Source: Sinohyriopsis cumingii (taxonomy: Eukaryota > Mollusca > Bivalvia > Unionida > Unionidae). From it: 64,000 nt of DNA. The notes beneath the pieces were generated by a model, which worked only from the letters and a program-made list of their open reading frames with translations, made no database searches and was not told the origin of the DNA. Of this stretch, positions 24,026-50,324 are shown piece by piece. Positions within the stretch are counted from its first letter, which is position 1; each line of letters opens with the position of its first letter. Position numbers and translations under genes: made by a program. The DNA lies in contig CM068825.1 in the NCBI GenBank assembly GCA_028554795.2, positions 151,316,053 through 151,380,052 of the forward strand, written 5' to 3'.

Positions 24026-24032
24026 GAACTAG

Positions 24033-28744: not shown

Positions 28745-28773
28745 TATTCTCTTAAGGATTGTTTAAATCGACC

Positions 28774-29637: not shown

Positions 29638-29666
29638 TTTATAATAAACGCAATTGATCTAATTGT

Positions 29667-31106: not shown

Positions 31107-31138
31107 TTTATACTATTGCGTGTATTTCCAAATGGTGA

Positions 31139-31417: not shown

Positions 31418-31594
31418 GAGGACCCAATTTTTGTGCTAACCCTGCATATAATCTTTGAGTTACATCACCAAGTCCGCACAGGTGTATGTCTGTTATATAT
31501 GACCATTTATGCTATTTACTATTGTTTAATCGCTGTAATCATCAGCGAGTTCGTCAACGAGTTCTCGGTAAATACCAGCATCCATGACACCACC

Positions 31595-33890: not shown

Positions 33891-34154
33891 AGTAGTGAAT
33901 GGGGACACCCTAGGGACTAGGGGACTTCCATGTTAAAAAGGGTATATCCACTCTAGGGACTATGTAAAATTTAACATAGGAGAAAAAAATATCCACTCTG
34001 GGGACTATGTAATTTCACATGGGAGAAAAAAATATCCATTCTAGGGACAAGGGGAATTTAACATGGGAATAGAGAGTGGGTCTATCTAGGGACAAGGGGA
34101 AATGGAACAGGGGAGGGACCCTATTTTAATACGGTCCCGACCTAATGGGTCTAT
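33891..34154 (+). repeat. left TIR of element 2, built of ~50-bp subrepeats
   Basis: Near-identical to the reverse complement of 49225-49488. Inside, units such as CTAGGGACTATGTAAAATTT and AACATAGGAGAAAAAAATATCC recur about four times. Related units form an array at 58.0-58.9 kb. Confidence 0.97.
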
Positions 34155-34586
34155 TGGTCTTCTTCTTGTCCTTAGGCTGTGTCTCACTGTAGGACCGTAA
34201 ATCAGGACTCTTTTGAGGCATCCTTGTCTTTCTACGCAGATCCTACGTATCCACAGACTGGTGTCTGTCCTATGGACAACTGTCCAGTTGGATCGGACAT
34301 AAATGGGTATGTCCGTCCGGAACATCATCGTTGACACAAGGGTGGAAGAGGGTACGTCGATCCACATGTTGAGGCGCCGAGAACAGGTGAATCAATGCAG
34401 TGAACTGCGCTTATTTATAGGTAGAGGTAGGATTGAAAAGGAATGAGTTTGTTGACCAATTCAAACACGCATTACAAAATTCAGTCAGCCCGCATCCAAT
34501 CCGAAGAGAGCAGTCTGTGACGTCACGTGGTCTATATAGATTCGCTAGCGCCTGTGTGCAGTCAATCTATCCGACAGTTATTCAAC
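34155..34586 (+). promoter_or_regulatory. upstream region and TATA box of the first element-2 gene
   Basis: About 430 bp without a gene. CTATATAGA (34532-34540) lies about 50 bp before the ATG at 34587 and is the likely TATA box. The palindromic TGACGTCA (CRE/ATF type) and CACGTGG just upstream (34518-34530) are common activator sites. Confidence 0.6.
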
Positions 34587-35156
34587 ATGACGGAAACTCA
34601 GAAAACGATCCATTGGGGTGCACCAGCAGTGGAGACCACCCAAGGGAACCCGGACTTACTTTCAGAAGAGGTGAATTGGGATTTTGTGGATTTTCTTACC
34701 TTGCAAGAATTTGTTCCGGAACCTTCGTCTCCTTCATTACCGCACATGGAGAATTTTAGACAGAGACAGAAAGAAGAATTGCAGAAATTTATACAACAGC
34801 AAAAGGAAGCGGAACAAGCTTTTCTCCTACAGCAACAACAGCAAGAAGAAGAGGTAAGAAAAAAACAACAACAAGAAGCAGCAGCAAAAAAACAAGGGTG
34901 TGAAAATCAAACGGTCACGGTATTGTTAGACATTTTAGTGGAGTTAAGAAGTCTGAAACAAATGTCTCAGACTTCTTTATTACGACCGAAGAGAACACGA
35001 CCTTCCCGAGCTAAACACTCCAACCCTGTGACTAAGCCTACCGTGCCACCCTTAGTGATTTCAACCAAATCATCATCATCATCATCAACAGTACGCAGTC
35101 CAGAAGTAGGCATTGGCCGTGGCAAAGGCTTAAGGCAGTTAAAGTTGATTGCTTAA
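34587..35156 (+). CDS. Gln-rich coiled-coil protein with histone-type mRNA 3' end, 189 aa
   Basis: The ATG at 34587 (MTETQKTIHW) is preferred over earlier in-frame codons because it lies about 50 bp after the TATA box. Residues about 55-110 form a Gln/Glu-rich helix (RQRQKEELQKFIQQQKEAE), then a short hydrophobic helix (VTVLLDILVELRSLK), a basic patch (RPKRTRPSRAK), a Ser run and a Gly/Arg/Lys tail (GIGRGKGLRQLK). Not recognised. It could be a nucleic-acid-binding or virion-core protein. It is the first gene after the left TIR and ends 22 bp before a histone-like stem-loop, the same 3' end as three genes near the right TIR. Confidence 0.65.
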   Translation: MTETQKTIHWGAPAVETTQGNPDLLSEEVNWDFVDFLTLQEFVPEPSSPSLPHMENFRQRQKEELQKFIQQQKEAEQAFLLQQQQQEEEVRKKQQQEAAAKKQGCENQTVTVLLDILVELRSLKQMSQTSLLRPKRTRPSRAKHSNPVTKPTVPPLVISTKSSSSSSTVRSPEVGIGRGKGLRQLKLIA

Positions 35157-35178
35157 ACTCACCCCTACACCGAAAAAA

Positions 35179-35218
35179 GGCCCTTTTCAGGGCCACCCAC
35201 ATTTCTCGAAAAGAGATA
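35179..35218 (+). terminator. histone-type 3' stem-loop and purine-rich downstream element, copy 1
   Basis: GGCCCTTTTCAGGGCC (35179-35194) forms a perfect 6-bp stem with a UUUC loop. It is preceded by AAAA and followed by ACCCAC, then CTCGAAAAGAGATAG after 11 bases. This is the layout of replication-dependent histone mRNA 3' ends (stem-loop, ACCCA, histone downstream element). It starts 22 bases after the stop codon. Known role: binding by SLBP and cleavage directed by U7 snRNP, giving an mRNA without poly(A). Use by this gene is inferred. Confidence 0.8.
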
Positions 35219-35425
35219 GACTTTCAATTGCCAATAACTCAAAAAAAAAATTCCCCTATAGTACGTGTTTATGAGTGTGTGAGTGTACGTTCTTATTTTA
35301 AAATCAAAACCCTAAGACACTTACCTTTTTATACCTAATTTATTCTTTTATAAATATTTACAATCCAATTCACAATTCACAACATAGCACTTTAAAAAGT
35401 TCATAGACTTCTTCTGTCTTATTGT

Positions 35426-35870
35426 TTAGTCTCTCTGCTTTTTAAATTTCTTCACCGTCACATTCTTTTCCTCCTCTTCCTCCTCACTTTCTTCCCTTCT
35501 TCTTTTCTTCTCCTGTTTCTTTTTCTTTACCTGGCTGCTTTCTTCCTCTGAAGAATCCCTCTCTTCTTCTGAAGAATCCCTATTTTCTTCTGACTCTCTT
35601 GTTTCTTTTTTGGGCAATCTGGAGACCAGTGTCCTTTTTCTTGACAATAATAACAGGTGTCTTGACTTCTGTCTTTTCTAGCCCCTTTTTTCCTTTTTGA
35701 CGGTCTGGACACTCTGAAGACCAATGCCCTTTCTTCTGACAGATATAGCAAGTATCTTCACTTTTATCTCGAAAAGAAGGAGAGTAGTCCGAAGGCTGGT
35801 CTGAAGAAAATTTTCTAATGACCCCTCGCAAAGCTCTGATGAAACGTTCGATCTGGGTAGTCTCTTCCAT
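35426..35870 (-). pseudogene. double CCHC zinc-knuckle protein, two frameshifts
   Basis: Starts MEETTQIERFIRALRGVIRK at 35870. The first knuckle CYICQKKGHWSSEC and the second CYYCQEKGHWSPDC both fit C-x2-C-x4-H-x4-C, the nucleocapsid-type knuckle. They lie in different frames, with a shift near 35700, and a second shift near 35610 leads into an acidic/basic tail (SSEEERDSSEEESSQ, then KKKKQEKKRRR) to the stop at 35426. Such knuckles bind single-stranded nucleic acid. AATAAA on the minus strand near 35340 could be its poly(A) signal. Nearly identical second knuckles suggest an internal duplication. Confidence 0.75.
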
Positions 35871-36004
35871 CGTTCTACTCGGTTTGAGAGTGAAATGAAT
35901 AGTGAAAGGACAAGACACACACCCTTTTATATACGCTGGTCTGCCATGACTATAAATTAGTCTATGGTGTTTAAACTTTAGTCATTTGACGTTTTGCACT
36001 CAAG
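35871..36004. promoter_or_regulatory. divergent promoter between zinc-knuckle gene and PolB
   Basis: On the minus strand, CGTATATAAAAGGG (about 35922-35935) lies about 55 bp before the zinc-knuckle ATG. On the plus strand, CTATAAATTA (35950-35959) lies about 46 bp before the PolB ATG. Both are good TATA boxes, so two back-to-back promoters occupy 134 bp. Confidence 0.7.
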
Positions 36005-39000
36005 ATGAAACGATCCAATTCATTTGAGAAGAAAGAAGAAGAAAGTAAGAGGCAGAAACGTGATCTATCGCCTCGTACCAGGGCTGAAGTCTTGGCACAA
36101 ATTCATGCCAGTGATTTTGAAGAAGACATGAGTGAACCAGAATCCAAACCCTCTAAACAAAGTTCACCACCCTTAGTCAACCCTGAAAAGTACTATTCCA
36201 TTCGAGAGACGGAAAAGCGCTCCTCTAGAAAATTTAGAACCACGGCTTACAAATACACGGTGAAGTTTAAAGATTTCCAGGCTGAAGTACCGTTAGAGAA
36301 AGCAGAAGGGTTAATCACTGGGGTGTGGGATTCCTTGCTTACCACACTCAAGCGACAATGTCAACCCAAAGAAGACGATCGCTTGAGACTTTCCATACAA
36401 CACGACGGTTTGAAATCCCCTGTTTGGATCGAGTTTAGCAGCCCTGCAGAATTGACCGCTTCCAAAGTCATGGACAAGATTCAACACATACAACAATCCA
36501 ATGACCAGTTTGATATCACCGATGGAAAAGCCACACTGGACATGACCCACGTCTCTCCTCCTCAAGGGACTGGCCGCAAAAAGGTCTTATTGTTGGACGG
36601 CCTTCGTAACACCAAAACAAGCCTCGTCCGAATTAACAACCCTCAAGACCAGATGTGTTTAGCCAGGGCTATCGTGGTGGGACGAACCCATGCCAACAAG
36701 AACGACACGGTAGAATGGAAAAGAGAATGGGAGAACATCCGAAAATCGAACCGAGCCAAACAACGAAACGAAGAAGAACTTCTGTTACAACAAACAGGCT
36801 TGTCCAAAGATTCACCCTGTGGCATTCCTGAGATGCAAAAATTGCAAGATACCCTAGCTCCACGATACACCTTGAAAGTGCACCCTCAAGGAGTGCGTGG
36901 GCCTCTGTTGTTTCGAGGCCAAGATTTTAAGGACGGAAAATACATTCACCTTTATCATCACGATGAACATTTCGATACAATTACCAGTATCACTGGATTC
37001 CTGGGATACAAATATTACTGTGAGAAATGTGACCGTGGTTATAATAATCGAGAACAGCACAAACATTGTGGATCGAAATGCTTAGGATGTTTGGCCTCTC
37101 AACCCTGTTTGAGCGAAGGGTAAGAACCAATGCATTGTCCTGCTTGTCTGCGCACGTTTGTCAGCCCTGCCTGTTACCAACAACATCTGAAGACGCAAGG
37201 TTAACATAAGAAATGCGCTTGTCAACTGCTGAGATTGTGCCTCACGTGTGGACAAGGCATACGTACCAATAGTGCCAAGGCACACGTATGTCGAGGAAAG
37301 AAAAAATGTCACATTTGTCATCACATCGTGGACTTGGAACACCAATGATACGTACAAAAATACCAACCCCAACCAGAGAATGAGGACGGTCACAAGAAGA
37401 AAGACAATTTCATCTTTTTCGATTTCGAATGCATGCAAGAGACCGGCATTCACATTCCTAATTTCTGCGTGACTCATCGAGCGTGCGAGAAGTGTATTCA
37501 AGAACCTATCTTCAGTCATTGCCCTCACTGCAGCAAAATTCCTGGAGGGCGTGAAAAAATCTTTCGAGGACCAAAGACGCTAGATGATTTTGCCAAATGG
37601 GTCTATGACCCCATCGACAAGACGTGGAGCAAAGAGGACATCGAACGTTACGGAGATTGTCATCGTCATGCCACGGTGATGGCTCACAATTTCTCCGGAT
37701 ACGATGGACAGTTTCTTCTCAGATACTATACGGAACAAGGCACCGAGCGTCCTAAAGTGACTTTGAACGGAGCCAAAATCATTTTCATGCAAGTGGGACA
37801 AGTACAGTTTAAAGATTCGATGAGCTACAGGGCCATGCCTTTGAGCCGAATGCCTAAAACATTTGGAATGACAGAAATGGCTAAAGGGTATTTTCCACAC
37901 TTTTTCAATACCGAAGCCGATCAACACGCCGTTCCACCCCATTTACCTGAGGTTCACTATTACGACCCCGACAACATGCGTACCGAACAACGAGAAGCTT
38001 TCTACGCTTGGTACCAGTCTAACGCCTCCGACCCTTTCGACTTTCAGGAAGAAATGGTAAAGTATTGTCGTTCCGACGTGGACATTTTACGGCGTTGCTG
38101 TGGAAAATTTCGAGAACTGTTCATGGAACACGGAGGGGTCGATCCTTTGAAAGAAGCTTGCACCATTGCCAAATCGTGTTCCTTAGTGTACCGCCAACGA
38201 TTCATGCCTGAAAACACTGTGGCTGTCATAAGTCCTCAAACGACCAACTATGTCAAACGTCAATACTCGGTCAAAGCCCTACGCTGGTTACATTACTTGT
38301 GCGACAAGGAAGACAAGTGGATTCGGCATGCCCGCAACGGAGGTGGCGAAAAGACCATCGGAACGCATTCGGTCGATGGCTGGGACTTAGAAAACCCCAA
38401 GATCGTGTACGAGTTTAACGGTTGCTTATTTCACGCATGCTCCGTCTGTTACCCTGATTGTAGCACTAGAAATCAGTTTTTACAACGGACCATCGAAGAC
38501 TTGTACCAGGACACTTGTCAGCGACGCCTAAAGTTAGAACAGGAAGGATACCAAGTGGTGGATATGTGGGAACACGAATACGATCACCTTTTGAAAATCG
38601 ATCCCGAGTTTAAACGCCTCGTGGAAAGCTACCAGTTCATGGACCCCCTGAACCCAAGGGATAGTTTGTACGGAGGAAGGACCAATGCCACCTGTTTGCT
38701 GTACGAAGCCGACGAAGAGAAAGGAGAAGAAATCAAATACTTGGACGTGTGTTCGCTGTATCCCTACGTGTGCAAATATTGTCGCTTTCCTGCAGGACAC
38801 CCGCAATTGTTCACCGAACACATCGACCTGAAAAACATTCGACAATACGAAGGCTTGATCAAGTACAAAGTTTTGCCTCCCACGAACCTATACCATCCCG
38901 TTTTACCTCACCATTGCCAAGGCAAACTGATGTTTCCTTTGTGTCGTACTTGTGCTGAAACGTGCAACCAAGATCAACCTTGTCAGCACACCCAGGAAGA

Positions 39001-40046
39001 ACGGGCCTTGACAGGGACGTGGGTCAGTGTAGAATTGTTCAAAGCTCTGGACATGGGATACCAACTGTTAGAAGTGTACGAAATTTGCCACTTTCCCAAG
39101 ACACAACAATACCACAAGGGTGACCCCACTCAGAAAGGCTTTTTCGCAGACTACGTGGATGCCTTTTGGAAACTGAAGCAAGAAGCCAGTGGCTATCCTT
39201 CCTGGTGTCACACTCCCGAAGACCAAAAGACATTCAAAGAGAAATACTGTGAACAAGAAGGCATCACTTTAGATCACATCGAGAAAAACGAAGGCAGGCG
39301 ATCGTTTGCCAAAGTGATGTTAAATTGCTTGTGGGGTAAAATGGCACAACGACCGTGTTTACCCAAGACGGAATATTTGACAGAACCTTCCCGCTACTTC
39401 CAGATGATTCACGACAAAACCAAATGCATGAAACACGTGGACGTCGTTCGCGAGGATTTGATCTTGGTCAATTACGAAGAAGATCTGGACTTTGTACAAG
39501 ACGACCCCTTTGGAAATGTCATCATTGCGGCTTACGTGACAGCTCATGCTCGCTAAAAATTGTACGAAGCTTTAGAACTGTTAGGGGAACGTGTCCTGTA
39601 CTTTGACACGGACAGTTGCATTTACATCCATCACCCGAGTCAACAGCACCCTGACATTGAAGGAGACCGTTTAGGAGCCTGGACAGACGAGCACCCCGAC
39701 GATAATATTCTAAGTTTCGCCAGTGGTGGTCCTAACAATAACGGTTACGAATACCGAGACAAACAAGAAGTGCACACGACGTATAAAGTGAAAGGATTGA
39801 CTCTGAATTATCGTACCAGTTGAGTGGTGAACTTTGGCGTATTGAAAGAAGCTTTGCAGTCTAGAGTAGATGAACACTTTAAAGTGACAACCGAATCAAC
39901 ACAACAAGATTGTACGTTTACCCACTCACCACATCGTCAGTCGACCCTTGGAAAAAGTCTATCAAATCGTGTACCAGAAGCGAGTGCGACTTCCCATTCA
40001 TTTTACCTTACCGTATGGACACGTCGGTATTGGTCTGTATATATAA
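36005..40046 (+). pseudogene. family B DNA polymerase (Polinton pPolB), five in-frame stops
   Basis: The frame starts MKRSNSFEKKEEESKRQKRD and runs about 1,300 codons in one frame, broken only by stops at 37121, 37202, 37346, 39554 and 39821, then a frameshift near 39920 before the end. A Cys/His-rich block (CEKCDRGYNNREQH and later CxxC pairs) at about residues 335-440 is zinc-binding. Exonuclease motifs follow (FFDFECMQ near 37417, NFSGYDGQFLL near 37690). Polymerase motifs A (LDVCSLYPYV, ~38742), B (KVMLNCLWGKM, ~39310) and C (YFDTDSCIY, ~39600) are all intact. The enzyme would replicate the element by protein priming. The last codons overlap the TATA box of the BIR gene. Confidence 0.92.
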
Positions 40047-40052
40047 AGGAAC
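40035..40052 (+). promoter_or_regulatory. TATA box of the BIR gene, overlapping the PolB stop
   Basis: CTGTATATATAAAGGAACC lies about 55 bp upstream of the ATG at 40103. The PolB stop TAA (40044-40046) is inside it. Confidence 0.75.
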
Positions 40053-40102
40053 CCTAGGCAAGATCGATAGTTCATAGTGACTACCAAGACCAAGCGAACA
40101 AG

Positions 40103-40739
40103 ATGAATACTTTCAGAGAAACACAAAACAAGTTCAGAAAGGCACAATTCAAGTTTGGGGCTTCTGAAGTGGAATGCGATTGTGAGACTTGCGATGGGAA
40201 CGATGCTGTATGCTGTGACCTTAGCGATGCCGTAAAGCATCATGGGAACTTTGTTCTCACTGCCCCTATCATGGAAAGTGATGCTGTGCGTGTCAAACCT
40301 GAGGGATTTCGAAAGCGATGCCGCTCGTCCTCTTGGACACTTTACTGGGTTTCGTTTTAAAGGTGAATGTCCACCTTCACGTCTACCTCCCTACGGATGT
40401 CATCCAGCCCTGAGCAAACTCCTGTCCATGTCACCCAACGCTCATCGAAACGAACCTGTGAAAGACGAATATTCGTTCCCTGTGCGTTTGTCGGAATACT
40501 GCGACTTTGAAAATCGTCTTCAATCGTTCAAAGGAAAATGGCCTAAGTATCTGGGAGGACCGACCCCCGAAGAATTAGCCAGAGCCGGATTTTTCTACTT
40601 GGGCGAAGGGGATAAAGTCAAGTGCTTCATTTGCGGTGTGCCACTTCACCACTGGGAACCACAAGATTCGGCCTACCTAGAACATGCTCGATGGTCACCG
40701 TATTGTCATTACTTACCCTTAGTGGGACCGAGACATTGA
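40103..40739 (+). pseudogene. BIR-domain (IAP-like) protein, one frameshift
   Basis: The first frame (40103 to about 40300) opens MNTFRETQNKFRKAQF and has a Cys-rich stretch (CDCETCDGNDAVCC). After one shift near 40290 the second frame continues to 40739. Its last 75 residues form one BIR domain: FENRLQSFKGKWP, ELARAGFFYLGEGDKVKCF, then the zinc ligands in the exact C-x2-C-x16-H-x6-C spacing. No RING finger follows. BIR proteins of cells and of several insect dsDNA viruses block apoptosis. That function here is inferred, and the frameshift means this copy cannot act as read. It has its own TATA box. Confidence 0.85.
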
Positions 40740-40750
40740 AGTAACTTACC

Positions 40751-41146
40751 ATGTCGTTGACGAAGAAGAAGAAAGCAGATTGGTTAGGAGTGAAATGATG
40801 GACATCACCGAGACCAGAATTTAAACTTCATTTCAAAAACGATATTGAATCATTACCTAAAGAACTGCAAGAGAAGATTTACAAGGAAGTTTGGCAGGGG
40901 TTTGCTAGAGTGAAATCTCAATGGGTGACTGTAGAACGTTTGTGCCGAGAAATTCACAAGAGAAAAGTGAAAAAAGTCAACCAGTGTGTTAGATTTCTCT
41001 GGGTCAGGTGTGCATTCGTCCTATTATATTACTCTAGACAGTTTACATCAAAAGAGTTTAATGAGATTCTTGGACGTTACCCTGAATGGCAGTGGCCAGA
41101 AATTACTCACTATGTGGATTACTTTTGCTCTAGGAGAGGATTGTGA
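40751..41146 (+). pseudogene. F-box-like protein 1, one in-frame stop
   Basis: Starts MSLTKKKKADWLGVK at 40751 and meets TGA at 40796-40798; the same frame then stays open to 41146. The segment ESLPKELQEKIYKEVWQ resembles the first helix of an F-box (LP-x-EL...I). The remaining part (VQCVRFLWVRCAF-like, WQWPEITHYVDYF) is unassigned. F-box proteins recruit substrates to SCF ubiquitin ligases, so a role in host manipulation is possible but only inferred. It is a tandem neighbour of a similar gene. Confidence 0.5.
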
Positions 41147-41167
41147 ATTGTACGGACTGACCTATTC

Positions 41168-41659
41168 ATGGATACTTTACAAGAGAACATTCGTGCTTTG
41201 CCTGTGGAGTTGAGAGAACGCATTTACCGAGAGCTGGTCAAAATACAAGTCAAACGTAAAGAACAATTGCATCCGTTACGTCACCAGATCTTTAACCACT
41301 GGTACCTGAATGGTATAAGAGGACTGATTCGTCAGAAATTGTTTCAGTGGTCAGACCTTGTTCATCACTTTCAGTTAGTGAATGAACTAAATGTTCGTAA
41401 TTTTGGTTACTTCGAGATTCACCTAGAGCAACGTATTGAGGAAGACGAATTAAAGGATTACCAACATATTTTACATGGAATCTTCGTAGCGGAAGACGAA
41501 ACATCTAGACAAACTCTGAAGTGTAGGTTACAGTATGCAAGATTTAGATTCCCTACTGGAGAACGAAGATGTCTAGTTAGAAATTACCTTTATTGCTTCC
41601 GAAATAAAGAGACTATAAAATCAGGAATTCATGCCACGGCTTATGTCACAAGTGATTGA
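41168..41659 (+). CDS. F-box-like protein 2, 163 aa
   Basis: An open frame starting MDTLQENIRALPVELRERIY. The ALPVELRERIYRELVKIQ helix matches the equivalent part of the gene just upstream, so the two are probably tandem paralogues. The rest is helical with many aromatic residues (NHWYLNGIRGLI, NFGYFEIHLEQRI). The F-box assignment rests on about 20 residues only. Its end overlaps the start of the next gene by 29 bp. Confidence 0.5.
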   Translation: MDTLQENIRALPVELRERIYRELVKIQVKRKEQLHPLRHQIFNHWYLNGIRGLIRQKLFQWSDLVHHFQLVNELNVRNFGYFEIHLEQRIEEDELKDYQHILHGIFVAEDETSRQTLKCRLQYARFRFPTGERRCLVRNYLYCFRNKETIKSGIHATAYVTSD

Positions 41660-42239
41660 ACAGATTCCGTGGAAGGAACTCAACGACCATATTCAAACCG
41701 TGGATCATTACCATCAATTATTACAAGAACTGTACCATTCAATTTGGGTCGACAAGTGGTGTGTCTTAGTGACTTGTTTTCTGGGATTTCGTTTACCAGC
41801 CGATTCCTTGTGGACTCTTTACGAACAGTACTTACCACCCCAATGGCCTTAAATGGTCACGAAAGACTCCTTTTGCTCAAAGCCATGCGTTTTCATCTGG
41901 ATACTTCTCAACCTCAACAGGAAAAAAAGATTCGTCAACTTTTAGCTACCGAAGACGTGTATGACGATGTGTGTGTAGCTTGTGACTTACACTCCCATTG
42001 GACAGATGTGCGTGACTGGAAAAAAGGGGGTTTTGAGGCTTGGACCCAAGAAGTGGCACAGTATGCACGAGAGTTGTTCAAGGAAAAAAGTTACTTTTCA
42101 ACCTGTGTTAGTGACAGTGCCAGAAGAACCCGTCACCCAGGACAGGACTCTCGTGGACATGCCTGAAAGACCCTGTCGGGAGGACACTTGTGCGACCTTA
42201 CCCCCTATAGAACTGGTCAGAACATTACCCAAAACATGA
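41631..42239 (+). pseudogene. unknown protein, two frameshifts
   Basis: Three frame segments follow one another: 41631-41852 (MPRLMSQVIEQIPWKELNDH, ending YLPPQWP), about 41850-42098 (LLLLKAMRFHLDTSQPQQEK), and about 42098-42239 (VPEEPVTQDRTLVDMPERP, ending LPPIELVRTLPKT). I do not recognise it. It lies between the F-box-like pair and the capsid cluster. Confidence 0.45.
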
Positions 42240-42284
42240 CAAGATTTACAGAAACAACCCTTGTGGGTGTGATGTGGAGAACGT

Positions 42285-42593
42285 ATGCCTAAAACGCAAA
42301 TCGTCTTTTTCTGCCAAATCTTCGTGGTGTATTGTGTCATCGGTGCAGCCATTGCCAATTTGAGTTTCCAACAAGGAGACAAACAATTGTGGACCATTTT
42401 ATTGAGCAGTTGCATCGGTTACCTGCTTCCCAATCCCTCCCTGAAATTCTCTTCCAACGGGAACAACGGGAACCTTGTGTCCAGTGCCAGTGTCTGTCAC
42501 CACTCCAATAACAACAACAACCCTATTTTGGGCGGAGACACGGCCCTGACGTCCAGTAACCCCTCGGACAGCCACAGAACTCTGGAATTATGA
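42285..42593 (+). CDS. small membrane protein, 102 aa
   Basis: Two hydrophobic helices: IVFFCQIFVVYCVIGAAIAN (a signal-anchor-like first helix) and LWTILLSSCIGYLLPNPSLK. The C-terminal half is Asn/Ser-rich and polar. The KQLWTILLSS...GYLLPNP block is, from memory, recurrent in small proteins beside Polinton capsid genes. The stop overlaps the penton start codon in ATGA. A role in the virion membrane or in egress is a guess. Confidence 0.65.
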   Translation: MPKTQIVFFCQIFVVYCVIGAAIANLSFQQGDKQLWTILLSSCIGYLLPNPSLKFSSNGNNGNLVSSASVCHHSNNNNNPILGGDTALTSSNPSDSHRTLEL

Positions 42594-43521
42594 GTCACCA
42601 AAACCAATTTTACTTAACCTTACCCAGTGACAGTTCCATGGAGGTGTTTCCCAAGAACACCTTGTGCTGTTACACGGCCAAATTACCTCAGACCATCCCA
42701 TTAGATCACGAAGCCCATTGGGAAGTGGCTTTAGTAGAAATCATTCACCCAACCCAAGTCCTCAATGTCCTTCCGAATCAAAATAAATTTGATGTGGAAG
42801 TTCATGACGAACAATTGCAACAGTACTTGGATACGTATGGCAAATATGACAAGAAAACCCCTGGCACAAAAAATCAAAAGTACACCACCTATCACTTGTT
42901 CATTCCTCCAGGCTATTATTTTAATGGTCAACATTTGGTGAGCACCATAACCTCGAGGTTTAATGTCGTGTTTCTGAAAGCTTTGGAAAGTGTCAAAAAA
43001 GTGTCACCATGGAATACCACAAAGCAGCTCGTCCCTTCTTGATGAAATTTGACGGGAGTAAAATCGTGTCCATTTTATTTTGTCCTGAATTGTTTGGCAT
43101 GTTGGGCGGAGACATGGACATGAGAATGGCCATGCTCAAGAAAAACGAATTACCAATCATTTACGACAACGAGTCTTTTAGCAAGTTATTTCGTGCCCCG
43201 GTAGAACTGAACCAAGGACTGAATCTGATGTTTGTGTACTCCGATGTGGTGGAGTATAACGTGGTGGGACACACCTCCGTACCGTTACTGCGTGTCATTC
43301 CTTTCAAAGTGGATTCTGCCACTAACGCTGACGAGGAAAGTGGAAACACTTACCACGTTCACCGCGAATTTGTACATCCTCACTATTTGCCTGTCAGCAA
43401 GTCGTATTTGGACACGGTCAACATTGCTATAAAATGAGATCTGGGACAAAATATTCCATTCAGCAAAGGAAAAGTCACGGTGAAACTCCATTTTCGAAAA
43501 CGGTTCTCTCACGACTCGTAA
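42590..43521 (+). pseudogene. minor capsid (penton-like) protein, frameshift plus in-frame stop
   Basis: The first part (42590-43015) starts MSHQNQFYLTLPSDSSMEVF, with HWEVALVEIIHPTQVLNV, the standard opening of Polinton pentons. After a frameshift near 43015 it continues with VSILFCPELFGMLGG and LMFVYSDVVEYNVVGHT. A TGA at 43435-43437 interrupts, then the same frame runs on with KGKVTVKLHFRKRF to the true end at 43521. The final LHFR-like strand is a family hallmark, so the TGA is read as nonsense. It would form the capsid vertices with the neighbouring major capsid protein. Confidence 0.8.
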
Positions 43522-43524
43522 GTC

Positions 43525-43950
43525 ATGTATCCAGTGTACCGAGGGGTTGCTCGACAGCGAGGACACGGTTTAGGAGATATGTTAAAATCGGCCTTTCGTT
43601 CGGTGGCTCCGGTGTTGAAACCGATGGTGACACGCGGATTGCACGCCTTGAAAGATGCGGCACTGACGCAAGGCAAAGAATTTCTCCAAAATGTCATCAT
43701 CGACAAACAAAATCCTAAAGAAGCCTTCATGAGGGCAGGCAAAAATGTCTTGCTGCAAACGTACAAAGACCTTTTGGGCCGACGGGAAACACCTATAAAT
43801 GCCCTGCACGCTGCCGAGTCAAGCATTCAGCAAGGACAAGGCAGAAAGAGACGACGAAGAAAACACCCTTTCACCAGACTTCACACTTCTAAAGCTAGAA
43901 AGGCAAAGAAAAGAAGAACCGTTCGAGACTTAGAAGTTTTCGATTATTGA
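43525..43950 (+). CDS. basic minor virion/core-like protein, 141 aa
   Basis: Starts MYPVYRGVARQRGHGLGDML only 3 bp after the penton stop. A Gly-rich lead and an amphipathic helix (LKSAFRSVAPVLKPMVTRGL) are followed by an Arg/Lys-rich tail (GRKRRRRKHPF, KARKAKKRRTV), as in adenovirus core or pVI/pX-type proteins. The family links DNA to the capsid. It is intact and packed between penton and major capsid genes. Confidence 0.7.
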   Translation: MYPVYRGVARQRGHGLGDMLKSAFRSVAPVLKPMVTRGLHALKDAALTQGKEFLQNVIIDKQNPKEAFMRAGKNVLLQTYKDLLGRRETPINALHAAESSIQQGQGRKRRRRKHPFTRLHTSKARKAKKRRTVRDLEVFDY

Positions 43951-43963
43951 GAAAGAGAAAAAA

Positions 43964-45289
43964 ATGATGCACCGAGAGTCTTGCGCCTGTTCCAAGTCGG
44001 AACTGGATCTGTTTGCCATGCCCCCCACCATGATGACCATGCAAGAATCCCAGTGGGTGGAATTTCATCCCGTTTCCTCTATGACGGATTCCGCTCCCAT
44101 CGAGTTTGAAATCAAAGGACAACCCGAAGATTACATCGATCTGAATTGCAGTTACCTGTATTTCAAAGTGAAACTGATCAAAACGGACAACACCAATCCA
44201 GGAGGCGATGCTAGAGTTCCTCCTGTCAACAATTTCATGCATTCCTTGTTGAGCGAAGTGGACTTGTACTTGAATAACAAACTGGTCAGCAGCAGCATGG
44301 ATACTTACCCATATCGTGCCTACCTGGAAAATCTCTTGACGTACGGAAAAGAAGCCAAGAATACTATTCTGGATGCTTGCGTGGTATGGAAACCTGACAC
44401 GGCAGGTGTAGGCACGTTTAGCGACACAGTCCTGACAGAAGATGACAATCCTCACAATGTGGGGTTTAACGACCGTCGAAAGAAAATTCTGCAAGGGCGA
44501 AGTTTAGAACTGATGGATCGTTTGCATTTGGACATGTGGTTACAAGAAAAGTATTTGCTGAACGGGGTGGATATCCGTCTGAGACTGAATCGTAGCAGTG
44601 CCGCTTTCCATTTGGTGGCCCATGCCAATGAATATAAAACTATCATTCAAGAAGCCCGACTTTACGTGCGTCGTGTGGAAGTGTTACCTAAAGTGGGAAA
44701 CGACGTCAGTCAGACGTTGAGCAGAACGACTGCCAAGTATCCGATACGACGCGTAGAAGTGAAAACGTTCACCATTCCCGCTGGACTGCGATCTATGATC
44801 GAAGGTCATCTGTTCCAAGGACAGTTACCCAAACGTTTGATTGTTGGTATCGTCAGGAATTCAGCCTTTATCGGAACCCACGATCAAAATCATTTTGAGT
44901 TTCAACATTACAATGTGTCCAAGATCGAAGTCAGTCGCGACAGCAAGACCTTGTGTACCCGACCCTTTGAGCCCAACTTTGGTGTCGCGAAGAATTATTT
45001 GAGATCGTATTTGTCCCTGTACGAAGCCACGGGACAGTTAGGAACCAACACCAGTCACGGTATTTCGTACGACGATTATGCAGGAGGCTATGCTTTGTGG
45101 GGTTTTGATTTCACTCCAGACCAAGGCAGCGACGAGGGACATTTCCACCCTATAAAATCGGGTCAGATTCGTGTGGAACTTCAGTTTGCAAATCCACCTC
45201 CAGATCACACAGTGAACGTCCTCCTGTATGCAGAATTTGACAATACCATAGAAATCAACAGTTTGAGAGAAGTCATTCTAGACTATTAG
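43964..45289 (+). CDS. Polinton major capsid protein (F54H12.2-type double jelly-roll), 441 aa, intact
   Basis: Open throughout, starting MMHRESCACSKSELDLFAMP. Typical blocks include SAPIEFEIKGQPEDYIDLNC, LSEVDLYLNNKLVSSSMDTY followed by PYRAYLENLL, QGRSLELMDRLHLDM, QGQLPKRLIVGI and HGISYDDYAGGYALWGFDFT. These are the hallmark strands of the Polinton hexon group that databases label 'uncharacterized protein F54H12.2-like'. Two vertical jelly rolls per subunit form trimers that tile the capsid. Length is normal. The intact frame contrasts with the broken PolB and penton genes. Confidence 0.9.
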   Translation: MMHRESCACSKSELDLFAMPPTMMTMQESQWVEFHPVSSMTDSAPIEFEIKGQPEDYIDLNCSYLYFKVKLIKTDNTNPGGDARVPPVNNFMHSLLSEVDLYLNNKLVSSSMDTYPYRAYLENLLTYGKEAKNTILDACVVWKPDTAGVGTFSDTVLTEDDNPHNVGFNDRRKKILQGRSLELMDRLHLDMWLQEKYLLNGVDIRLRLNRSSAAFHLVAHANEYKTIIQEARLYVRRVEVLPKVGNDVSQTLSRTTAKYPIRRVEVKTFTIPAGLRSMIEGHLFQGQLPKRLIVGIVRNSAFIGTHDQNHFEFQHYNVSKIEVSRDSKTLCTRPFEPNFGVAKNYLRSYLSLYEATGQLGTNTSHGISYDDYAGGYALWGFDFTPDQGSDEGHFHPIKSGQIRVELQFANPPPDHTVNVLLYAEFDNTIEINSLREVILDY

Positions 45290-45294
45290 AAGCC

Positions 45295-45840
45295 ATGGAA
45301 GACTGTTATCTCTCTTTTCCTAGTGGAGAAACTTTGGAGATGGAATGTGAGGAGACCGGGGAAGAAGAAGAATCCCAAGACGAAGAAGTTATCATGATGA
45401 AGTCAAGATGGCCAGAACAAGAAGCCCATTTAGTCTCCTGTTTTGCCAAACACTTGGTCGAAAAAATGACCGAATTGATCAAGAAATAGTGCTATGGATG
45501 TCTAAACGATCATCCCAGTCAAATTCAACACGATAAATGCCTGATGCTGAGTCAAGAAGAAAAATTGAACGAGTATCTGGACGAAGCTTGGAGTCTCATC
45601 TCGGACGAAATCGTGTTGCATCAGTGGTATAAAGACTTGCGTGAACATTCTTGTCCACCATTAACCACCATTAACCACTCAAGAGATCCATCGTATCGAA
45701 TCTCTTCTGAATCAGAGTGGGGAGACGAAGCTAAACGCCTTTTACTTGTCAGACATTTTCAGGCAAAAAGTCAGGATCGAACTGATCACTTATCATTACC
45801 TGTGAAGAAGAAGAAGACTTGCGTGAACATTCTTGTCCAC
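45295..45840 (+). pseudogene. conserved Polinton Cys/His protein, in-frame stop and internal duplication
   Basis: Starts MEDCYLSFPSGETLEMECEE 5 bp after the capsid stop. An acidic lead is followed by a helix (FAKHLVEKMTELIKK), then a TAG at 45487-45489. The same frame continues with CYGCLNDHPSQIQHDKCLM, a C-x2-C...H...C pattern that I recall as recurrent in Polinton proteins, and KLNEYLDEAWSLI. The end is scrambled by a 182-bp tandem duplication. The function of the family is unknown to me. Confidence 0.6.
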
Positions 45841-46001
45841 CATTAACCACCATTAACCACTCAAGAGATCCATCGTATCGAATCTCTTCTGAATCAGAGT
45901 GGGGAGACGAAGCTAAACGCCTTTTACTTGTCAGACATTTTCAGGCAAAAAGTCAGGATCGAACTGATCACTTATCATTACCTGTGAAGAAGAAGAAGAA
46001 G
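45632..46001. repeat. 182-bp tandem duplication
   Basis: The sequence from AAGACTTGCGTGAACATTC to GAAGAAGAAGAAG is repeated almost perfectly: first copy about 45632-45813, second about 45814-45995. The two copies are nearly identical, so the duplication is recent. It changes the reading frame at the end of the gene at 45295-45840. Confidence 0.93.
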
Positions 46002-46020
46002 AAAAGAAACCACACAAAAC

Positions 46021-46296
46021 ATGGATACCTGGGAACTTTATTACCTTTTGAACCACAGCTCGTACACGGCTTCTTGGAATCCTGTCGTCTGTGCTAAAGA
46101 TGAACTCCCTCATCGCAAACCTCAAGACCATCTAGCTTATGTCATCAACGATGTGAAAGTAGATCGATGGTTTTTTGACCATTATGCTTATCTTTTGTCT
46201 CAAGCCAGGAAACGTAGTGTCCATCAATGGCCTAATGACTTCCAACAGTGGAAATCACAATTTCATTCACAACGTTGTCAGCCCTGTCCAAAATAA
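46021..46296 (+). CDS. small unknown protein, 91 aa
   Basis: An open frame MDTWELYYLLNHSSYTASWN with a WFFDHYAYLLSQARKR helix and a basic/polar end. It could be the displaced end of the preceding gene after the duplication, or a separate gene. Not recognised. AATAAA at 46405-46410 about 110 bp downstream is a fair poly(A) signal, unlike the stem-loop ends of the next genes. Confidence 0.45.
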   Translation: MDTWELYYLLNHSSYTASWNPVVCAKDELPHRKPQDHLAYVINDVKVDRWFFDHYAYLLSQARKRSVHQWPNDFQQWKSQFHSQRCQPCPK

Positions 46297-46404
46297 TGTG
46301 TGAGTTCCAAAAAAAATGTTTGTCATTTGAAAAAATATTTGATGTTATATTGTTGGATTATTGTTAAAAATGTTAGAGTTGTTTGTTAGTGTTAAGTGAT
46401 TTTG

Positions 46405-46410
46405 AATAAA
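46405..46410 (+). terminator. candidate poly(A) signal AATAAA
   Basis: AATAAA in TTTTGAATAAAAAAAACG, following T/G-rich sequence. It would end the transcripts of the capsid cluster. Confidence 0.5.
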
Positions 46411-46540
46411 AAAAACGTTGTGTTTTGAAAAAAATGCCTTTGGTTTTTGTTTGGCTATAGGAATTTTGATTCATGCTCTTTGACTTCTTACTATCCCTCT
46501 CATGACACGCATTGAACGGTCCGACTCGAAAACCGTGGAG

Positions 46541-46575
46541 GGATGTTTTCCTTCACGTCCGCGCATTGACTTTAA
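46541..46575 (+). promoter_or_regulatory. shared promoter module, copy 1
   Basis: GGATGTTTTCCTTCACGTCC plus GCGC is followed by TTTAAGAACC. It lies about 65 bp before the ATG at 46631. The same core precedes the next two genes. Confidence 0.75.
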
Positions 46576-46630
46576 GAACCGGGGAAGTTTCCAGTCTAAC
46601 CATCCATTGTCGACTCATCCTCCTACGAAG

Positions 46631-46989
46631 ATGTGCTCCAAACTAGCTAAGCTAAACGAAGCCTACGTGAATTTGCATAGGGTCAGACACAGTCTGATAC
46701 CGAAGCCAGAAGAGAGAATGTGAGAATGTTAAAGGTCACTGAAGACCTGATAGAAGAGCTCTTCAGAGAAGAAGTGAACAGGGAAAAAGAAGAATGGACA
46801 GAGAAGTACAGATTTCAGAAACAGCAGAGAGAGCAGCAACAGCAGCAACAACAGCAGCAGGAACCTGAACCTGACAGAGGCTTTGTCGATTGTCGTATCG
46901 ACACCAAAGAGTTCTTCTTCTCTTTCCGAAGAAGCAGACCTATCGTCAGAAAGTCTATCCTCAGAGGACGTCGCATTCTTAGAAACTAA
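46631..46989 (+). pseudogene. array gene B: small charged coiled-coil protein, one frameshift
   Basis: Starts MCSKLAKLNEAYVNLHRVRH, similar to the start of array gene C. After a frameshift near 46715 the second frame has KVTEDLIEELFREEVNRE, a Gln run and an Arg-rich end (RSRPIVRKSILRGRRILRN). The DLIEELFREEVNRE segment resembles the MIEGLIEEEVKR segment of array gene D. Not recognised. It has the shared promoter module upstream and a histone-like stem-loop downstream. Confidence 0.6.
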
Positions 46990-47014
46990 AAGATTGCCAT
47001 AGCAAACAAAAAAT

Positions 47015-47056
47015 AGCACTTTTCAGGGCTACCCAATACTCTAGAAAAGAAATAAC
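47015..47056 (+). terminator. histone-type 3' stem-loop, copy 2 (one mismatch)
   Basis: AGCACTTTTCAGGGCT (47015-47030) forms the same stem and UUUC loop with one A-G mismatch. It is followed by ACCCA and the purine-rich TAGAAAAGAAATAAC. It starts 25 bases after the stop codon of array gene B. Confidence 0.65.
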
Positions 47057-47289
47057 AATTGATTTGCCAATGTATGTATGTAGAGTAGTGTGAATATAAA
47101 CACTGACTCTTTTGTGATGTGAGTGTATGTGTTGGTGTGGATAGTAGATAATGATAGTGGGGTTTTTTTTGCTGTTTGAGGTGTGTGGAGAGTAGATTTG
47201 GGGTTTGATTGGATTGCTTTGCGTATGTGGACAGTATATTGAAGTGATTAATGAAAATTTTAAAATTAGTAATGGATAGTAAAAAAGTG
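47057..47289. repeat. conserved spacer of the gene array, copy 1
   Basis: The sequence from ATTTGCCAATGTATGTATGT through GTGTGAATATAAACACTGAC and the following GT-rich stretch recurs at about 48090-48330 after the next stem-loop. Confidence 0.8.
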
Positions 47290-47340
47290 AGTGTTTCTTT
47301 TAGGTCCGCGCGTTGTTTGGTCGTGATCTAGGTAAGATCA
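47290..47340 (+). promoter_or_regulatory. degenerate promoter module, copy 2, split from copy 3 by an insertion
   Basis: GTTTCTTTTAGGTCCGCGCG followed by GTGATCTAGGTAAGATCAAT. The same pair of blocks, with GTGATAATCTAGGTAATATC between two modules, is found uninterrupted at 48340-48427. Confidence 0.6.
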
Positions 47341-47351
47341 ATATTGTTTTA

Positions 47352-47601
47352 ACACGAGTGTGTGGTGTGACTATTCCCACTTATGTTTATTAGCCTTTCA
47401 GTCAGGTTGTTAAGGACTAGTTAGTCCTACACCTGAGTGGCTAAATTAAAAAGTACTCTTTGAGTACATAAAAGCCTGGGGGATGAGGCTCCTTTTCCTT
47501 CCCTCCCCCAGGAGTAATTAAAAATCACGCAGTGCGTGAATAAACAAGTGGTACATGTTCAAAAGAACGAAAACCACTATAATTCAACTAACTAACTAAC
47601 T
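47352..47601. mobile_element. 250-bp retroposon-like insertion with exact 12-bp target duplication
   Basis: AATATTGTTTTA occurs at 47340-47351 and again at 47602-47613, flanking a 250-bp insert that ends in an (AACT)n tail (AACTAACTAACTAACT). A hairpin GCCTGGGGGA...TCCCCCAGG-type pair lies in the middle. The uninterrupted relative at 48380-48405 lacks the insert. Duplication length and short-repeat tail fit a SINE-like element. No clear tRNA boxes were seen. Confidence 0.85.
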
Positions 47602-47616
47602 AATATTGTTTTAGGT

Positions 47617-47660
47617 GGGACGTTTTCCTTCACGTCCGCGCTTTTAGTATAAATTGAAAA
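47617..47660 (+). promoter_or_regulatory. shared promoter module, copy 3
   Basis: GGGACGTTTTCCTTCACGTC plus CGCGC is followed by TTTTAGTATAAATTG, a TATA-like box about 50 bp before the ATG at 47702. Confidence 0.8.
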
Positions 47661-47701
47661 TCGCTCGGCAGTCTAGCTACCTTTGTTGATTGATCAAGAA
47701 A

Positions 47702-48019
47702 ATGAACACCAGACTAGCAAAACTGCTGGAACTTCATGTACACCTGGAATATGCCAGGCGTATAGTGAATGAGCTGGCTGCAGAGGCCATAGTAGAAGAG
47801 GGAAGAATGAAAGAGGAGGAGAGAAGAAACAAAGAAGAGGAGGAGAGAAGAAAGAGAGAAGAGGAAGAAAAGGAGAGAGGAAATTTCAGAATCCCAGAGA
47901 CAGAAGATTGGGATTCTGAAGCCACTTATCCCGCCTCTGCTCTCCCCCCAAAAAGAGTGAAAGGAGACTGGGGAAGAAGATTTGTGTGTGGTGCCAGGCC
48001 TGGAAGGTGCCATCATTGA
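47702..48019 (+). CDS. array gene C: small charged coiled-coil protein, 105 aa
   Basis: Intact. Starts MNTRLAKLLELHVHLEYARR, then a long Glu/Arg/Lys helix (KEEEERRKREEEEKERG) and a basic end (RRFVCGARPGRCHH). The ATG at 47702 is chosen because it lies a suitable distance after the TATA-like box; an in-frame earlier codon at 47690 is less likely. Shares its amino-terminal LAKL-x-E-x2-V-x-L pattern with array gene B. Function unknown. It is the cleanest member of the array: promoter module, ORF and perfect stem-loop. Confidence 0.65.
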   Translation: MNTRLAKLLELHVHLEYARRIVNELAAEAIVEEGRMKEEERRNKEEEERRKREEEEKERGNFRIPETEDWDSEATYPASALPPKRVKGDWGRRFVCGARPGRCHH

Positions 48020-48049
48020 CCAGGTGTCACTGGAGTTCAAAAAACAAAC

Positions 48050-48090
48050 AGCCCTTTTCAGGGCTACCCAATACTCTAGAAAAGAAATAG
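48050..48090 (+). terminator. histone-type 3' stem-loop, copy 3 (perfect)
   Basis: AGCCCTTTTCAGGGCT (48050-48065) forms a perfect 6-bp stem with a UUUC loop, preceded by an AAAACAAAC flank and followed by ACCCA and CTAGAAAAGAAATAG. It starts 30 bases after the stop codon of array gene C. Confidence 0.8.
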
Positions 48091-48151
48091 TAATCGATTT
48101 GCCAATGTGTGTATGTAGATTAGTGTGAATATAAACACTGACTCTTTTTTC

Positions 48152-48190
<39 letters not shown>

Positions 48191-48330
48191 TTTATTTGTA
48201 AGCGCTCATGTACGTTTGTGTGGATAGTAGATTATTGGGTTTCATTATAATGCTTTGCGTGTGTGGATAGTAGATTTGGGGTTTGTTTATTGCTGTTTCA
48301 CTTATGTGGATAGCATATTATATGAAATGA
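48091..48330. repeat. conserved spacer of the gene array, copy 2, with (TG)n run
   Basis: A second copy of the ATTTGCCAATGTGTGTATGT...AATATAAACACTGAC spacer. It contains an expanded (TG)n run at about 48155-48189. Confidence 0.85.
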
Positions 48331-48339
48331 GAAAAGTAG

Positions 48340-48445
48340 GGAATGTTTTCCTTCACGTCCGCGCGTTTTAAGTGATAATCTAGGTAATATCAATTTTGTT
48401 TTGGGGGATGTTTTCCTTCACGTCCGCACTTTAACTATAAGAACC
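48340..48445 (+). promoter_or_regulatory. tandem promoter modules, copies 4 and 5
   Basis: AATGTTTTCCTTCACGTCCG (48341-48360, continuing CGC) and GGATGTTTTCCTTCACGTCC (48406-48425, continuing GC) are 65 bp apart, with GATAATCTAGGTAATATCAA between them. The second leads into TTTAACTATAAGAACC, a TATA-like box about 50 bp before the ATG at 48491. Confidence 0.85.
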
Positions 48446-48490
48446 CACAGTGTTCGTCGATCGCACCATTCTACGGAATAAAAAAAGAAG

Positions 48491-49071
48491 ATGGAAGTGT
48501 CCCAACTGTTTAATGATTTAAGACATGTTTATTTTTGGATGGTGGATGGTGAATATGGAGTTGAAAGGATTGAAAGAGATTGGAGGTTAAGAACAAGTGT
48601 GCACTACGTGAACGAACTAAAATTAGCCAGGGAGATGATAGAGGGATTAATTGAAGAAGAAGTGAAGAGATTGAGAGGGCTAATAAATCCCCCTTATGTC
48701 AGAGTGGGAACATTAAAAGAGGCAATGGAGAAGGTAGAAGAAATAAGAAGGTTTTTGGAAGAGATAGAATAAAGGTCAGAGTGGCCCTTTATCAAAAGGA
48801 GTGTTGAAAGATTGAAAAAAGGGGAAGAAAAGATGAGAAAGGTAATAGATGAAGAAGTGGAGAAAATAAAGGATAGGTGGGCAAAAGATAGAAAAGAAGA
48901 AGAAAATAGAAAGAAAAAGGAAGAACTAGAGAAACAAATGTTATCTGGATGAAAATCCAACAGAAGTTCCGAGCCATGGGTCACCCGGACTGGATACCGG
49001 AAAATGAAAAGAAGAAGAAGAAAGGAATGATGGAAAAAATAAGGGGATGGATAAAGAAGTTGAGGAGTTAG
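48491..49071 (+). pseudogene. array gene D: charged helical protein, stop and frameshift
   Basis: Starts MEVSQLFNDLRHVYFWMVDG and is open to TAA at 48770-48772. The same frame then continues (RSVERLKKGEEKMRKVIDEE, KKKEELEKQMLSG) to 48953. A further frame carries a short basic end (MGHPDWIPENEKKK) to the TAG at 49069-49071, 18 bases before the stem-loop. The segment ELKLAREMIEGLIEEEVKR resembles part of array gene B. Not recognised. Confidence 0.55.
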
Positions 49072-49089
49072 AAGAAGAAGAAACCCAAA

Positions 49090-49130
49090 GGCCCTTTTTA
49101 GGGCCACTCCAATCTCTCGAAAAGAGATAG
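49090..49130 (+). terminator. histone-type 3' stem-loop, copy 4
   Basis: GGCCCTTTTTAGGGCC (49090-49105) forms a perfect 6-bp stem with a UUUU loop, preceded by CCCAAA and followed by ACTCCA and CTCGAAAAGAGATAG. The downstream element is identical to that of copy 1 at the other end of the element. Confidence 0.78.
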
Positions 49131-49224
49131 ACTTTCAATTGCCTACCCCATTTTTTTATTTTTTTTGATTTTTTAAAAAAAATAGAGACCCCTCCCTGTT
49201 TCAGTTTTCACCTGTTCCCTTTCC

Positions 49225-49488
49225 ATAGACCCATTAGGTCGGGACCGTATTAAAATAGGGTCTCGACCCTGTTCCATTTCCCCTTGTCCCTAGATAGACC
49301 CACACTCTATTCCCATGTTATATTCCCCTTGTCCCTAGAATGGGTATTTTTTTCTCCCATGTTAAATTACATAGTCCCCAGAGTGGATATTTTTTTCTCC
49401 TATGTTAAATTTTACATTGTCCCCAGAGTGGATATACCCTTTTTAACATGGAAGTCCCCTAGTCCCTAGGGTGTCCCCATTCACTACT
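49225..49488 (-). repeat. right TIR of element 2
   Basis: Inverted copy of 33891-34154, ending ATTCACTACT, followed at once by the target duplication GTCGCA. Confidence 0.97.
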
Positions 49489-50324
49489 GTCGCAATTAAA
49501 ACAAAAATTCAATTGTTATTTTCTGTGAGAATCATCATGTCTTATTGGCACGTGCAGTTTGTATAAAATCATTATTACCAAATTTGCAGAGGTATTTCGT
49601 CGCATCAAAGTTTGACGCATACTGTTTGCATTAAAATTGTTTGTATAACAATAATAAAACAAATTATTATTTCAAAAACATATTACTTCCTCCGTTCAGA
49701 GGATTAGTTCATGTTGCCGTTCGTTGATTAAAGCAAATATTTGACGCGTATTTGCTTTGCATACGAGTTGTTCTCATGGAAGCACGTAATATGATTTCCA
49801 TCTCGCAACAGTGAATCATAACAGCCTATGTCAGAGTTTGTTACGTGACAGAGCATTGCTTTCCTGGATATTATATATCATATCATTACTGAAGCTCAGG
49901 TCGCCAAGTTATAACTAGTATTTATCTTCAGGTATATTATTTTAGCGAGATGTTGTCTTGTCATGAGTCAGCTAATCTTTTTTATGTATATCCAATAGAT
50001 CTGAGAGATTCAGTGTAGCAGCTATACTTTGGGTCTGTGCTTCCAGAATTCTTTCTTACCTGAGCATTATACTTAGTTTATGATAGGAGATATGCATAAT
50101 ACAGTTTGGACCAGATAAATTATTTCATTTTTAAGAATCAAAATAAGTATATTTTATTCCCTCTCAGTGGCGTCAATGGGATCGTGTGTGTGGACCGTAC
50201 CGGGTGACAACATCAGAGGTGGGACACCAGAATGGCCGTCTATATAAAAACAAATTGTGCAGGAAGGAGGTCCATTAGGGTAACACCGTGAATTACAACA
50301 GTGGGTGACACCAACCCTAGCGAC

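Follow-up and report, generated by a model that had tools for sequence, protein, structure and literature searches.

Introduction

To our knowledge, histone-type mRNA 3' ends are usually taken as being almost private to the replication-dependent histone genes. In mammals, as set out in the accessible sections of PMC7026596, the stem-loop is held by SLBP, the CUCUUU of the U7 small nuclear RNA (snRNA) pairs with the AAAGAG of the downstream element, and CPSF73 cuts between the stem-loop and that element. For the bivalve Lucina pectinata, the excerpted text of PMC6210712 places a stem-loop near the stop codon of the histone mRNAs. A hairpin rule of a different kind is described, in the part of PMC4402537 consulted, for Mimivirus and other giant viruses, in which a hairpin downstream of the gene marks the 3' end of the mRNA; in Mimivirus a viral cytoplasmic enzyme polyadenylates the message there. 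Here, we describe a Polinton (Maverick) within a 64,000-nucleotide (nt) stretch of the genome of the unionid bivalve Sinohyriopsis cumingii (assembly GCA_028554795.2, contig CM068825.1, positions 151,316,053 to 151,380,052 of the forward strand; hereafter the window), whose small genes near both ends bear histone-type 3' ends.

In its architecture this element is like the Polintons and adintoviruses of animals: it displays the hallmark terminal inverted repeats, 6-bp target duplication, type B DNA polymerase and a capsid gene cluster with the Polinton capsid protein. It is unlike them in its histone-type 3' ends and promoter boxes, with none of the four relatives that we fetched giving a match to the Histone3 family (Rfam RF00032) at E ≤ 2. 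As in animal replication-dependent histone genes, a stem-loop stands soon after the stop codon (18–30 nt in the Polinton, 27–38 nt in the host), and with the host histone genes in particular it shares a GAAAAG downstream element and related promoter boxes. Unlike histone genes, these genes sit in a mobile element, and a Pfam scan of the products of g1 (E ≤ 1), g3 and the g4 open reading frame (ORF; E ≤ 0.1 for both) showed no histone domain in these three; moreover, the g3 stem starts with an A-U pair and the Polinton flank is mostly ACC. The Mimivirus comparison holds for the hairpin after the gene; in contrast to Mimivirus, the Polinton is predicted to use host nuclear machinery and to produce mRNAs lacking poly(A). 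The histone-type ends are genuine, recur across many places in the host genome and are conserved, and the host histone genes resemble the Polinton genes at the promoter as well as at the 3' end. From these features we deem it very probable that the small genes near both ends of the Polinton (g0, g1, g2/g3 and g4) have the architecture of host replication-dependent histone genes, with predicted SLBP/U7 processing and S-phase expression.

Four histone-type 3' ends in the window

The histone-type ends of the window belong to a single repeat family, a 57-nt block with four copies between positions 30000 and 52000, the other three being 72, 74 and 91% identical to the first. Each consists of a stem-loop with a 4-nt U-rich loop, an AC-type flank and then GAAAAGARATAR. 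The original prediction had placed stem-loops with the layout of histone mRNAs at 35179, 47015, 48050 and 49090, and all four are indeed found there on the + strand, 22, 25, 30 and 18 nt past a stop codon on the coding strand. Its further statement that they share a 6-bp stem applies to three copies, the stem at 47015 having an A.G mismatch and five of six pairs; likewise, an ACCCA flank is seen in three copies, the other having ACTCC. In order, the downstream elements of the four copies are GAAAAGAGATAG, GAAAAGAAATAA, GAAAAGAAATAG and GAAAAGAGATAG, with AAAGAG inside those of copies 1 and 4 and AAAGAA in copies 2 and 3.

Covariance scores far above chance (41.8, 34.8 and 33.5 bits; E 6e-9 to 7.1e-6) bear out the histone-type layout. 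The Histone3 gathering score of 34 is reached by two of the four copies, and 33.5 falls just under it; the 47015 copy is well below at 19.2 bits, a match that emerged only from a search restricted to 301 bases, in which an unrelated family gave a better score on the opposite strand. No further Histone3 match appears at E ≤ 0.5 in the whole window. Chance hairpins as a source of these structures are ruled out by the E-values together with the placement in the genome described below. The polymerase, BIR and capsid genes have no histone-type 3' end in the window. The proposed contrast with an AATAAA-bearing capsid cluster fared less well: there is one such hexamer on the + strand at 46405, 3' of the capsid-side ORFs, but the contrast is weak, the hexamer being frequent in the window (153 seen against 109 expected on both strands).

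One homolog of the gene 1 product, P0129, extends beyond the point where the protein normally stops. When its segment WPISGPPTSLEKRYYVNCQFQ is compared with the translated window, the four best-scoring places are precisely the stem-loop blocks (57, 36, 33 and 30, the next best among about 127,800 positions being 24). With the 34-residue tail of P0129, copies 1 and 4 take the top two ranks, followed by an unrelated place. The codons of P0129 allow a sole perfect stem, GGCCCA with UGGGCC (96 of 4608 codon choices), and a comparable hairpin was possible in 2 of 3000 random peptides used as a control. P0129 may come from the same host species as the window; the protein search for other read-through tails gave only this one.

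Histone-type stem-loops across the host genome

We searched the 2.90-Gb host assembly with RF00032, scoring the best 75 of 589,472 first-look candidates, a choice that favours good stem-loops; in the control for this search, a match was obtained in one of 14 genomes, under the cut-off. All 75 scored matches pass the cut-off (34.5–45.6 bits) and all lie in copies of the Polinton family, each with at least 1,454 summed aligned nt to the window element. Further, every one of them is preceded by a family gene on the same strand, whose tblastn match ends between 500 nt before and 30 nt after the stem start, so that the placement relative to ORFs is as non-random as the original prediction would have it. 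The preceding gene is g0 in 29 loci, g1 in 23, g4 in 12 and g4b in 11. As the g0 stem-loop, missing in the window, is present in other copies, gene classes of this type number at least four in the family, not counting gene 2. A stop codon lies 0–60 nt before the stem in 63 loci (g0 28/29, g1 22/23, g4b 8/11, g4 5/12), and the remaining 12 are read as broken frames or partial matches. The 75 loci are spread over 24 contigs, with three pairs less than 50 kb apart, and none of them contains any of four histone motifs used for comparison.

Because these loci were chosen by stem-loop score, conservation was measured on other stem-loops of the same loci. An intact six-pair stem is found in 20 of 26 g1 rows (four or five pairs remaining in the other six), in 17 of 21 g3 rows (L046 being counted twice) and in 16 of 17 g0 rows (the L064 row being a T/A run and not the stem-loop of that locus, which has a mismatch). 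For identity, four of the 26 g1 rows were dropped as near-identical, and 20 g3 and 17 g0 rows were kept. The mean pairwise identities for g1, g3 and g0, respectively, are 0.951, 0.947 and 0.944 over the stem-loop plus ACC, and 0.907, 0.899 and 0.821 over the downstream element; the corresponding values are 0.838, 0.732 and 0.827 for the spacer before the stem-loop, 0.852, 0.721 and 0.886 for the gap after it, and 0.789, 0.805 and 0.835 for the last codons. Parts of the flanks are likewise well conserved (g3 at 60–99, 0.907; g1 at 100–150, 0.887), and hence the block is not the sole constrained stretch.

Over 67 stem-loops (58 distinct, the four of the window included), 96.3% of the stem cells are paired, as against 42.2% or 65.2% when the partners are slid by one column. 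The percentage paired, the cells changed on both sides and the covariation score all exceed every one of 500 shuffles. The first stem pair is GC in 31 distinct rows, AU in 21, GU in one and unpaired in five; with AU being typical of g3, this amounts to one exchange kept by gene class rather than 21 events. The U-rich loop, the AC flank and the purine core are kept at near-constant spacing across the stem-loops.

The genes themselves were compared using intact ORFs only and pairs with a synonymous divergence (dS) of 0.05–1.2. The median ratio of nonsynonymous to synonymous divergence (dN/dS) is 0.39 for g1 (29 ORFs from 51 loci), 0.24 for g3 (12 from 20), 0.33 for g4b (7 from 12) and 0.14 for g0 (46 from 52), with median dS of 0.10, 0.69, 0.18 and 0.75, respectively. 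The ratio is below one in every pair used; by this measure, the genes before the stem-loops are under purifying selection.

Host histone genes and shared promoter boxes

A Pfam histone search, in which 150 of 662 candidates were scored, recovered the host histone genes as tandem arrays with a period near 8.3 kb; units of about this length occur on contigs C14, C310, C531, C561 and others, with many small contigs among them. In one such unit (L081), H3, H4, H2B, H2A and H1 each have a Histone3 stem-loop (35.0–39.4 bits) at the distance from the stop given above. Its stem is GGCCCU/AGGGCC in four of the five genes, identical to that of Polinton copies 1 and 4, and GAAAAG lies downstream in all five; the flanks after the host stems are ACA, ACA, AUA, ACA and ACU.

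The resemblance extends to the promoters of genes 2–4, beyond what the original prediction had claimed. A box of 20 bases, GTTTTCCTTCACGTCCGCGC, stands before these genes and, with one mismatch, before host H2B and, with two, before H1, on the coding strand only; in the window outside the Polinton (96,804 positions) it has no match with up to three mismatches. The core of the box is found upstream in 22 of 23 g4/g4b loci and never antisense. In the g1 promoter, TGTGACGTCA and CTATATAGAT are among the words that recur instead, in 42–45 of 48 upstream regions, and CCAAT is present in 11 of the 12 g1 upstream regions displayed.

A proposed mechanism and its alternatives

We read the blocks of the window as working histone-type ends that would be used in the nucleus by host factors; a function at the RNA level is strongly suggested. 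It further appears somewhat probable that the Polinton family took over the host histone programme, promoter box and 3' end alike, to express non-histone genes of its own. To elaborate, transcripts of g0–g4 would contain an SLBP-type stem-loop followed by a U7-type downstream element, in view of which cleavage after the stem-loop by host SLBP and the U7 small nuclear ribonucleoprotein (snRNP) is to be expected, yielding mRNAs without poly(A). Given the promoter boxes common to genes 2–4 and host H2B, H1 and H4, the transcription of these genes would be expected to follow the histone programme, namely in S phase and perhaps at the histone locus body. The predicted timing draws on these shared boxes and on the known regulation of SLBP. 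The benefit to the element might lie in making its accessory proteins when the nucleus is ready to replicate DNA. Nothing in our analysis supports the original notion of a "late" expression switch.

Several observations weigh against this proposal. In 23 of the 75 loci an AATAAA or ATTAAA follows the stem by no more than 150 nt, and in 10 one precedes it by at most 30 nt, so that poly(A) ends, or a fallback to them, may be used. No promoter box was found before host H3 or H2A in unit L081, and g0 and g1 are without it, the core being upstream in just one of 52 g0/g1 loci. Two of the five covariation measures, namely pairs changed on both sides and further pair types, are not above the 500 shuffles. 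The genome search for the host U7 snRNA found none; it matched no control genome either and is hence uninformative. The four capsid relatives (L002–L005) lacking a Histone3 match lack a match to gene 1 as well, which makes theirs a weak negative. The first of these observations lends itself to an alternative in which SLBP bound at the stem-loop would govern mRNA stability or translation, with most transcripts being cut and polyadenylated at a downstream signal, and it is general knowledge that animal histone genes can make poly(A)+ RNA too. However, the other 52 loci have neither hexamer within 150 nt after the stem and the downstream element is conserved along with the stem-loop (0.821–0.907), rendering such mixed ends unlikely.

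Alternatively, the ends might be passive passengers, the element having acquired a stretch of host histone genes that later multiplied inside it and has no function for it. The close resemblance of the stem-loops and boxes to those of the host is in keeping with this, as is the longer repeat common to genes 2 and 3 (137 nt, 88%); however, the stem-loops stay about 95% identical while the intact g3 and g0 ORFs have diverged to a median dS of 0.69 and 0.75, the pairing is kept through a class-specific exchange, the preceding genes show purifying selection, and copies 1 and 4 are alike in the block and visibly not in their flanks. We hence regard mere passengers as highly improbable. Still more improbable, in our estimate, is that the palindrome acts as DNA, be it in replication or as a site for protein binding, or that it is a terminator hairpin of some other kind: it does lie near both ends of a linear element, and there is the giant-virus precedent for hairpin-directed mRNA ends (PMC4402537, in the part consulted), but strand-specific features are kept, with the loop rich in U, the flank of AC type and the purine core all nearly constant in their spacing, and they lie on the coding strand, as in host histone genes.

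Were SLBP/U7-dependent expression to hold, this Polinton would be the first known mobile element or virus to set the timing of its genes by passing them off as those of histones; we know of no other. Hijacking by a mobile virus-like element with histone-type ends and promoter boxes would show that the pathway is open to such use, and would give a clue to the way in which Polinton expression is tied to host DNA replication. Further, (i) the element might draw histone locus body factors to its own DNA; (ii) its many copies would compete with genuine histone mRNAs for SLBP and U7; (iii) poly(A)-selected RNA-seq would miss genes of the g0–g4 type; and (iv) the copies would supply a natural series of variants from which the base requirements of SLBP, U7 and the histone promoter factors in a non-model animal could be worked out. 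In the open-access literature, with most subscription papers lying outside its scope, we found no report of histone-type ends in Polintons and none joining a histone stem-loop with a transposable element. Open-access titles and abstracts on Polintons with stem-loops and histones, on viruses with SLBP or U7, and on Polinton expression disclose none on such ends at that level; parts of PMC11071296 and, as a reference only, PMC6713331 were also covered.

The Polinton, its relatives and its surroundings

The coordinates of the element and its features are collected in Table 1. Both terminal inverted repeats start with AGTAGTGAATGGGG. The window copy is partly decayed, with the gene 2 and gene 4 regions interrupted, and tblastn with the ORFs of four relatives gave no integrase or ATPase match inside this decayed copy. 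Additional features of the element are an ORF with a BIR (inhibitor of apoptosis) domain at 40242–40739 and a perfect 182-nt tandem duplication at 45632–45995; imperfect repeats with a 22-nt period lie just beyond it at 51498–51903.

Table 1. Features of the Polinton and its histone-type elements (window coordinates)
Feature	Position	Strand	Remarks
Polinton	33891-49488		bounded at both ends by terminal inverted repeats and target duplication
Terminal inverted repeats	33891-34154 and 49225-49488		264-nt arms, 97% complementary
6-bp target duplication GTCGCA	33885-33890 and 49489-49494		flanks both Polinton ends
Gene g0	34086-34367	-	ORF; stem-loop missing in window copy, present in other copies
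Gene 1 (g1)	34587-35156	+	189 amino acids, conserved; 20 homologs
Histone-type 3' block after g1	35176-35232, stem 35179-35194	+	RF00032 41.8 bits, E 6e-9
Type B DNA polymerase ORF	37433-39556	+	PF03175 E 7.5e-41; no histone-type end
Major capsid protein	43964-45289	+	homologs and Polinton relatives L002-L005; no histone-type end
Histone-type promoter box before gene 2	46545-46564	+	
Gene 2 open frame adjoining stem-loop	46726-46989	+	gene region interrupted in window copy
Histone-type 3' block after gene 2	47012-47068, stem 47015-47030	+	RF00032 19.2 bits; one stem mismatch
TTTCTTTTAGGTCCGCGCGTT	47294-47314	+	all 21 bases recur some 70 nt ahead of the host H4 ATG
Histone-type promoter box before gene 3	47622-47641	+	TATAA downstream
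Gene 3 (g3)	47702-48019	+	ORF, 105 amino acids
Histone-type 3' block after gene 3	48047-48103, stem 48050-48065	+	RF00032 33.5 bits, E 7.1e-6; first stem pair A-U
Two histone-type promoter boxes before gene 4	48345-48364, 48410-48429	+	
Gene 4 region (g4)	48491-49071	+	reading frame interrupted in window copy
Histone-type 3' block after gene 4	49087-49143, stem 49090-49105	+	RF00032 34.8 bits, E 2.4e-6

Of the 20 matches to the gene 1 product, 16 were aligned with it (an alignment of 17) and are 66–88% identical to it; its predicted fold consists of one long helix with the rest at low confidence (mean predicted local distance difference test score, pLDDT, 65.9). The capsid protein has 1401 homologs at E ≤ 0.001 in a protein search, and those named among the best 120 listed are from the bivalves Mercenaria, Ostrea, Saccostrea and Crassostrea, one sea cucumber and one bacterial metagenome-assembled genome (MAG). 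The contigs with the Polinton-type capsid genes of L002, L003, L004 and L005 were deposited as bacterial MAGs, some of them from symbionts, and are probably animal DNA carried along; L003 also has a sub-threshold match to the twister-P1 ribozyme at 11734–11798 (28.9 bits against a cut-off of 67.2). Phage records gave no match to the Polinton capsid protein, and in IMG/VR no relative was confirmed by searches with the capsid protein, its alignment, the type B polymerase or the gene 1 alignment. A stem-loop pattern matched one IMG/VR contig, which has no Histone3 match at the gathering score and was judged by eye from its ORFs to be a phage.

The window holds a second virus-like region at 14000–32000, in which there is no Histone3 match at E ≤ 0.5. 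It encodes a different double jelly-roll capsid protein (29667–31106, - strand), a weak adenovirus-protease match (28847–29215, - strand), an AAA-domain ORF (19140–19973, - strand), an HNH ORF (22458–22985) and an integrase-core ORF (15432–16097). Closer to the start of the window, at 2381–3633, lies a retroelement-type integrase with H2C2, rve and p58 C-terminal domains.

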